This document shows, in pieces, positions 48,495 to 48,875 of a DNA stretch of 64,000 nt. The position numbers and the translations under genes were made by a program. This stretch comes from Hydrogenimonas urashimensis (GTDB taxonomy: Bacteria; Campylobacterota; Campylobacteria; Campylobacterales; Hydrogenimonadaceae), in the NCBI RefSeq assembly GCF_016593255.1, contig NZ_AP023212.1:918001-982000 (forward strand), written 5' to 3'. The number at the start of each line of letters is the position of its first letter. Position 1 is the stretch's first letter. Under the pieces are notes generated by a model. The model did not search any database. It was not told the DNA's origin and saw only the letters and a program-made list of their open reading frames with translations.

Positions 48495-48514
48495 CATGAT
48501 ACGGGTGTATCATG
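48495..48514 (-). terminator. terminator hairpin of the proximal riboswitch
   Basis: CATGATAC, loop ACCC, GTATCATG, then TTTTCC on the minus strand. The 5' arm overlaps the last bases of the riboswitch (GGTTGCCATGATAC), so aptamer closing and terminator formation can compete. Confidence 0.7.
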
Positions 48515-48593
48515 GCAACCCAGCCGTCTTTATAAAACATAAAGACCTGTGGCTTTCCGTCCCCATTTCACAATGGGTTTGGCATATCCTACA
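48510..48593 (-). ncRNA. cyclic-di-GMP-I (GEMM) riboswitch, gene-proximal copy
   Basis: On the minus strand: ATGCCAAACC, a 6-bp stem closed by a GTGA (GNRA) loop, GGGACGGAAAGCCACAGG, a stem GTCTTTAT/ATAAAGAC, then GCTGGGTTGCC. This is the GEMM-I consensus, with compensatory changes against the distal copy. Aligned to the Vibrio Vc2 RNA, the specificity position is G, as for c-di-GMP. It ends about 180 bases before the TTG of the 670-residue lipoprotein. Confidence 0.9.
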
Positions 48594-48632
48594 TACATTA
48601 AAAAACGTGGAAAAGGTTTCATAAAAGAAGAT

Positions 48633-48662
48633 CTTGACTCTTTCGAGGAATAAAGAATCAAG
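48633..48662 (-). terminator. terminator hairpin of the distal riboswitch
   Basis: CTTGATTCTTT pairs with AAAGAGTCAAG (11 pairs, one G-T) around a short loop, followed by ATCTTCTTTTA on the minus strand. The 5' arm begins at the end of the distal aptamer. Confidence 0.65.
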
Positions 48663-48741
48663 GCAACCCGGCTGTCTTTGACCTTTTGGTAAAGACCCGT
48701 GGCTTTCCGTCCCTGCTTCACAACAGGTTTGGCCTTTTCAC
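48658..48741 (-). ncRNA. cyclic-di-GMP-I (GEMM) riboswitch, distal copy
   Basis: On the minus strand: AAAGGCCAAACC, stem CCTGTT/AGCAGG with a GTGA loop, GGGACGGAAAGCCACGGG, stem GTCTTT/AAAGAC, then GCCGGGTTGCC. It has the same architecture as the proximal copy, at lower sequence identity in the stems, so the fold is conserved by covariation. The transcript start must lie upstream of about 48745. The remainder of 48742-48875 holds AT-rich promoter-like sequence and nothing else supported. Confidence 0.9.
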
Positions 48742-48875
48742 ATACATCATTATGATACAATTCATATTAAACAAATCTTAAATCAAACGAAAAAAGGTAG
48801 CACTACTGTTAATGAACAAAAACAAGAGAAAGTGGGAACCAAGGTTTAGTTGGCCCCATTTTTAGACATAAAACC

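Follow-up and report, generated by a model that had tools for sequence, protein, structure and literature searches.

Two complete c-di-GMP-I (GEMM-I) riboswitch aptamers are located in tandem on the minus strand of the 64-kb stretch of Hydrogenimonas DNA analyzed here (the window), each followed by a terminator-like hairpin, upstream of a lipoprotein gene. We favor the interpretation that they form two serial transcriptional ON switches, AND-like and pseudo-cooperative, which probably control a lipoprotein/beta-helix operon beside exopolysaccharide genes. The tandem arrangement as such is neither new nor rare in Campylobacterota. What is newly seen is that the P1 stem of the Hydrogenimonas aptamers is without statistical support and that a hairpin starting at aptamer position 93 is conserved, which complicates the picture of two terminators.

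A cmscan of the window against all 4227 Rfam families gave only two matches above the curated threshold, both on the minus strand:

48742-48658, minus strand: c-di-GMP-I (GEMM-I) aptamer, copy 1, with G20 at 48733, C92 at 48663, and position 93 at 48662 (Rfam models, alignment)

48592-48510, minus strand: c-di-GMP-I (GEMM-I) aptamer, copy 2, with G20 at 48583, C92 at 48515, and position 93 at 48514 (Rfam models, alignment)

Copies 1 and 2 score 71.9 bits (E = 4.5e-15) and 62.3 bits (E = 2.6e-12), respectively, with the RF03167 model, and 70.2 and 65.0 bits with RF01051; all four values are above the gathering scores (59 bits for RF03167 and 35 bits for RF01051). The first-pass annotation, which had predicted two GEMM-I aptamers here and proposed an RF01051 covariance-model search of this strand as a check, is thus borne out, and the core motifs it listed (CCAAACC, a GNRA-capped stem, GGGACGGAAAGCC, and GGGTTGCC) were all found, the tetraloop being GUGA in both copies. 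Its remark that the stems differ by compensatory changes also holds. The two copies show such changes in both P2 and P3, and in the alignment of 84 Campylobacterota aptamers (covariance model built on 23 Campylobacterota aptamers) 97% of the P2/P3 cells pair, and 16 of the 21 pairs are changed in both partners, a value that none of 500 shuffles reached. Copy 2 has the lower scores and sits on a long branch of the tree, as would be expected if only one copy worked and the other were a decaying duplicate. We consider this improbable, given that the core residues are all intact in both copies, that the stems differ by compensatory changes, and that the copies of two Sulfurovum tandems appear to be inherited as pairs (see below). 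A local duplication was considered as the origin of the tandem, and a tree of 71 alignment columns gave no resolution.

All four residues that contact c-di-GMP, namely G20, A47, A48, and C92 (PMC3764141), are present in both copies, and c-di-GMP is therefore the likely ligand. Among the 98 aptamers examined, C92 is nearly invariant and G20 completely so (98/98). In cGAMP-type GEMM riboswitches, position 20 is expected to be A; this mark of the 3',3'-cGAMP riboswitch (GEMM-Ib) was found neither in the two copies nor in any of the 98 aptamers, in agreement with the specificity base G assigned previously. The best-scoring Rfam family is c-di-GMP-I-GGC (RF03167), by 2 bits for copy 1, which might point to another ligand, either 3',3'-cGAMP or the one preferred by the c-di-GMP-I-GGC variant. 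We regard this as very improbable: G20 is kept, RF01051 is passed by 30 bits, the genome encodes many GGDEF proteins (28 GGDEF domains above the Pfam cut-off), and position 47 is A in both copies (GGGACGGAAAGCC) rather than the G of the RF03167 consensus GGGACGCGAAgCc. This G47 is presumably what "GGC" in the family name denotes. Because position 47 is A here, RF03167 was rejected as a functional label, and no statement about the ligand should be drawn from it. Thus, the two copies resemble RF03167 in score, both being above its gathering threshold, and differ from it in A47 and in the long-range pair 21-46, which is C-G here and G-C in the RF03167 consensus line. Of 83 distinct Campylobacterota sequences, 81 have C-G at this pair, whereas the Vc2-type pair is G-C. 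In some Campylobacterota GEMM-I aptamers the pair 22-45 is U-A. Taken together, 21-46 and 22-45, the pairs next to the pocket, form a covaried variant that extends across the lineage.

Each aptamer runs directly into a hairpin with a U-rich tail:

48662-48623, minus strand: probable terminator 1, a hairpin flush with position 93 and a U-rich tail (folding, shuffles)

48514-48485, minus strand: probable terminator 2, a hairpin flush with position 93 and the tail UUUUCCUAUU (folding, shuffles)

Hairpin 1 (48662-48633) has 11 bp, an 8-nt loop, and the tail AUCUUCUUUU; hairpin 2 (48514-48495) has 8 bp and a 4-nt loop. The 5' arm of each starts exactly at position 93, next to the ligand-contacting C92. 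In dinucleotide shuffles, such a stem at position 93 with at least five U in the next 8 nt occurred with a probability of 5e-5 for hairpin 1 and 7e-4 for hairpin 2. Predicted energies are -10.8 to -11.9 and -8.2 to -8.8 kcal/mol, respectively, at 37 C, and -5.8 and -4.4 kcal/mol at 55 C. When three basal pairs are removed, hairpin 1 retains -5.7 of its -10.8 kcal/mol, about half, and hairpin 2 is nearly abolished, with -2.9 of its -8.2 kcal/mol left. The earlier description of a separate hairpin and T-rich stretch after each aptamer is accurate as regards terminator-like structures with U-rich tails, and it is uncertain as regards plain intrinsic termination. Likewise, the overlap between the 5' arm and the aptamer end is present, but of the known core it involves position 93 only.

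A single promoter-like site was identified, ahead of copy 1, together with a repeated box that overlaps it:

48781-48752, minus strand: promoter-like site TTAAGA-18-TATCAT, predicted start near 48745 (sequence only)

48781-48767, minus strand: TTAA-N7-TTAA box in the -35 region (motif comparison)

Between the copies, no promoter scored above the scan threshold, so both hairpins would have to be passed. At low c-di-GMP, RNA polymerase would stop at hairpin 1 or, if it escaped, at hairpin 2. With c-di-GMP bound, the aptamer would retain position 93 and the nucleotides 3' of it, so that the base of the next hairpin could not form and transcription would go on. Because both hairpins must be passed, read-through would be the product of two probabilities, with a tighter OFF state, a somewhat steeper response, and a higher threshold, and the operon is probably expressed only at clearly high c-di-GMP. 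In a model of two independent switches with a 5% leak each, the range would rise from 20- to 400-fold and L90/L10 would fall from 81 to 44. This serial, AND-like control had been proposed in the first-pass annotation; it agrees with the published reading of such doublets (PMC9481103, PMC4759541), while its ON sign is uncertain.

The serial ON interpretation is supported by the Rfam models, the covariation, the contact residues, the hairpins at position 93 and their weakening on removal of basal pairs, the single promoter-like site, the GGDEF count, and, as described below, the recurrence in Sulfurovum and the tested serial array Bc3-5. It is also supported by the unliganded minimum-free-energy fold of copy 1, in which P2, P3, and the hairpin coexist. 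Against it, C92 lies outside both hairpins, unlike in the tested ON switches pilM and Bc4, whose terminators include the C that pairs with the ligand (PMC9262584, PMC4759541); the hairpins are modest as terminators and weak at 55 C; most flush hairpins of relatives are without a U-tract, in a genus where P1 complementarity is at the shuffled level (z = -0.35); and copy 1 has a possible alternative helix, AAGGC/GCCUU, which could act as an antiterminator. Since C92 stays unpaired when the terminator is folded, aptamer and hairpin are compatible, which would fit an OFF switch, where c-di-GMP would raise termination by stabilizing the flush hairpin through stacking in the place of P1, or by freeing its 5' arm from the AAGGC/GCCUU helix of the unliganded state. 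This helix of 5 bp uses G20 and C92 and is predicted in copy 1 if the terminator is blocked, and GEMM-I OFF switches such as Cd1 exist (PMC9262584). The terminator is, however, more stable than the helix by about 10 kcal/mol, the helix is specific to copy 1, and it would be unusual for c-di-GMP to turn off genes of matrix type; we consider OFF control unlikely.

The putative ON switches precede the following genes:

48329-46317, minus strand: lipoprotein, the regulated gene (ORF, Pfam)

46064-44700, minus strand: paralogous lipoprotein, 454 aa, without a riboswitch of its own (ORF, comparison)

44688-43201, minus strand: beta-helix/pectate-lyase-like secreted protein (weak match, E = 0.09)

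The regulated lipoprotein (670 aa, TTG start, lipobox FTAC) has two CarboxypepD_reg domains, and its N-terminal domain had no match in Pfam. The C-terminal 422 residues of the paralog are 97% identical to it and the leaders of the two genes are unrelated, so that the pair looks like a recent partial duplication in which the riboswitches govern one copy only; a riboswitch ahead of the paralog was looked for in the Rfam scan of the window and none was found. Genes for a UDP-sugar dehydrogenase, an epimerase, and CpsB-like and Wzc-like proteins, all of exopolysaccharide type, are located upstream of the operon. Since the output would be a pair of surface lipoproteins and a polysaccharide-lyase-like protein near exopolysaccharide genes, the switch most likely links the sessile state to the production of proteins for matrix or attachment. 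A third GEMM-I aptamer in the same genome (C1:473348-473264, 58.2 bits with RF01051) precedes a gene for a lipoprotein with the same N-terminal domain, and orthologous lipoproteins with a single GEMM-I are present in two other Hydrogenimonas genomes (loci L098 and L099). The lipoprotein as sole query found no relatives in the named genomes, but an alignment used as query retrieved them.

Among 18 genomes of the genus Hydrogenimonas, the tandem is present only in that of the window. A survey of 397 genomes that included few Sulfurovum had yielded two tandem pairs and suggested rarity in Campylobacterota, in line with the earlier expectation of few such arrangements. This was overturned when 78 genomes of Sulfurovum, a related genus of deep-sea bacteria, were searched with a covariance model: the best 150 aptamers contain no fewer than 17 tandem pairs, distributed over 12 genomes, mostly with a spacing of 60-80 nt, compared with 65 nt in the window. 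Downstream of the tandems, the window included, 15 of 19 ORFs have a lipobox, compared with 13 of 71 in the broader survey, ORFs being crudely picked. These lipoproteins contain DUF4382 or belong to the same CarboxypepD_reg family as that of the window, the latter in at least six Sulfurovum genomes:

Tandem ahead of a CarboxypepD_reg lipoprotein: Sulfurovum sp. AR; isolates 354-166, NORP62, and 4281-140; and the genomes of loci L287 and L297

In this set, L181 and L293 are one locus, as are L187 and L298. A similar beta-helix-type gene, with the same MKK.. start, follows the lipoprotein gene in Sulfurovum as well. The relationships between individual copies suggest that two Sulfurovum tandems were inherited as pairs. 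The arrangement thus appears to be maintained, being recurrent and pair-inherited, which argues for function. Sulfurovum genomes have up to 21 GEMM-I riboswitches, many of them in tandem ahead of DUF4382 lipoproteins (L287-L302). In these Sulfurovum tandems, the distance between copy 2 and the start codon is often only about 20-60 nt, so that the pair may act first on transcription and then on translation. A different arrangement of adjacent aptamers was observed in L136 (577-784, genome G225), where two GEMM-I aptamers with an altered core (GCCACACC/GGGCCGGAAAG) are 13 nt apart and have no terminator between them.

Tandem c-di-GMP-I riboswitches have been described in other lineages. The class is reported as the most frequent one among homotypic tandems, with 347 doublets and 12 triplets (PMC9481103); the window has the same class in the same doublet arrangement, and the Sulfurovum tandems add that it is common and tied to lipoproteins in this group. 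According to a 2025 survey, tandem arrangement is found mainly in the T-box and c-di-GMP families; it gives Thermodesulfobacteriota and Deinococcota as enriched in c-di-GMP tandems, and its main text does not mention Campylobacterota (PMC12452182). The two complete switches of the window, of the same ligand class, 65 nt apart and with a terminator-like hairpin after the first, correspond to what that survey takes as a tandem (an intrinsic terminator after the first aptamer and at least 20 nt between aptamers). The closest tested counterpart is the Bc3-5 triple tandem ahead of cspABCDE in Bacillus thuringiensis, a serial ON array reported to be more stringent and digital (PMC4759541). Both systems consist of complete c-di-GMP-I switches in series, with their own terminators (probable ones in the window) and genes for cell-surface proteins. 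Bc3-5, however, belongs to another phylum and has three copies, with a terminator that incorporates the C of the pocket as well as P1 and part of P3, whereas the window has two copies and a terminator that starts only at position 93. In the pilM GEMM-I ON switch of Geobacter metallireducens the terminator likewise shares 3' aptamer nucleotides, but this switch is single, senses cGAMP, and has a terminator that sequesters the ligand-pairing C75 (PMC9262584). Within the literature collection searched, no paper pairs Hydrogenimonas with c-di-GMP; almost nothing has been published on c-di-GMP control in the vent-type Campylobacterota, and previous work on serial c-di-GMP-I switches consists of the Bacillus studies and surveys made mainly by phylum. 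Serial c-di-GMP-I riboswitches emerge here as a common gate for surface lipoproteins in this lineage.

We analyzed the flanks of the aptamers in relatives and observed that complementarity from G14-C93 outward, i.e. P1, is no better than with shuffled partners in 24 Hydrogenimonas aptamers (z = -0.35), whereas the P1 signal is kept in other Campylobacterota (z = -3.9). The stem at position 93 has a mean length of 5.67 bp in Hydrogenimonas (shuffled 3.25, sd 0.24) and 7.0 bp at the Sulfurovum lipoprotein loci (shuffled 3.52, sd 0.42). Flush stems of at least 6 bp occur in 11 of 24 and 7 of 10 loci, respectively (1.45 and 0.95 expected), and no over-representation was found outside these two groups. 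These hairpins mostly have no U-tract. In some relatives a second hairpin, as judged by eye, might recruit the 3' arm. In most Hydrogenimonas loci, TATAAT-like boxes end 12-17 nt before G20, and the GEMM transcripts therefore probably start close to the junction, at its edge, approximately where P1 would start. Either the flush hairpin replaces P1 in general, or the copies of the window are a special case turned terminator; if it does not replace P1, the expression platform may be something other than a plain terminator.

We tentatively suggest that Hydrogenimonas and the matching Sulfurovum loci may represent a structural variant of GEMM-I, in which transcripts start at the 5' edge of the junction, P1 therefore does not form, and the position-93 hairpin takes its place and links binding to the expression platform, the hairpins of the window tandem having turned into terminators. 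It is rather doubtful that the hairpin is not primarily a terminator but stands in for P1 in a P1-less aptamer, with regulation exerted further downstream by a second terminator, Rho, or a Shine-Dalgarno hairpin. The conservation of the flush stem in these two groups and not elsewhere, the rarity of U-rich tails at conserved stems, the lack of a P1 signal in Hydrogenimonas, and the position of the -10 boxes would all fit such an arrangement, as would a strong hairpin upstream of the lipoprotein start:

48420-48335, minus strand: hairpin pairing the Shine-Dalgarno AAGGAG with CUCCUU; -24.4 kcal/mol, z = -4.85 (folding)

On the other hand, the start sites are predictions, and both hairpins of the window have U-rich tails, as does the hairpin of the first Sulfurovum copy at L287. 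The pattern of a flush hairpin and no P1 leads to a testable question, namely how GEMM-I aptamers can signal without P1.

The predicted Shine-Dalgarno hairpin may provide further, translational control by sequestration; no convincing alignment of it with the L098 and L099 leaders was found. In addition, TGGTTTGCTCCTTGCA, located at the 5' border of the hairpin, is similar to a -24/-12 element of sigma-54 type. Most Hydrogenimonas GEMM leaders (L103, L119, L161, L163-L166, L170, L173-L177) contain a C/U-rich, G-poor stretch, e.g. CTTCCTTCCCTCTTC, 40-70 nt 3' of the aptamer, possibly an anti-Shine-Dalgarno or Rho-loading region. Finally, a TTAA-N6/7-TTAA box like that of the window, located 45-48 nt before G20 and overlapping the -35 region, is present in 9 of 24 GEMM promoters of the genus (10 if one at 58 nt is counted; 0.65 expected by shuffling), among them those of L119, L163, L170, L172-L175, and L177, and may be a shared activator site or promoter type.
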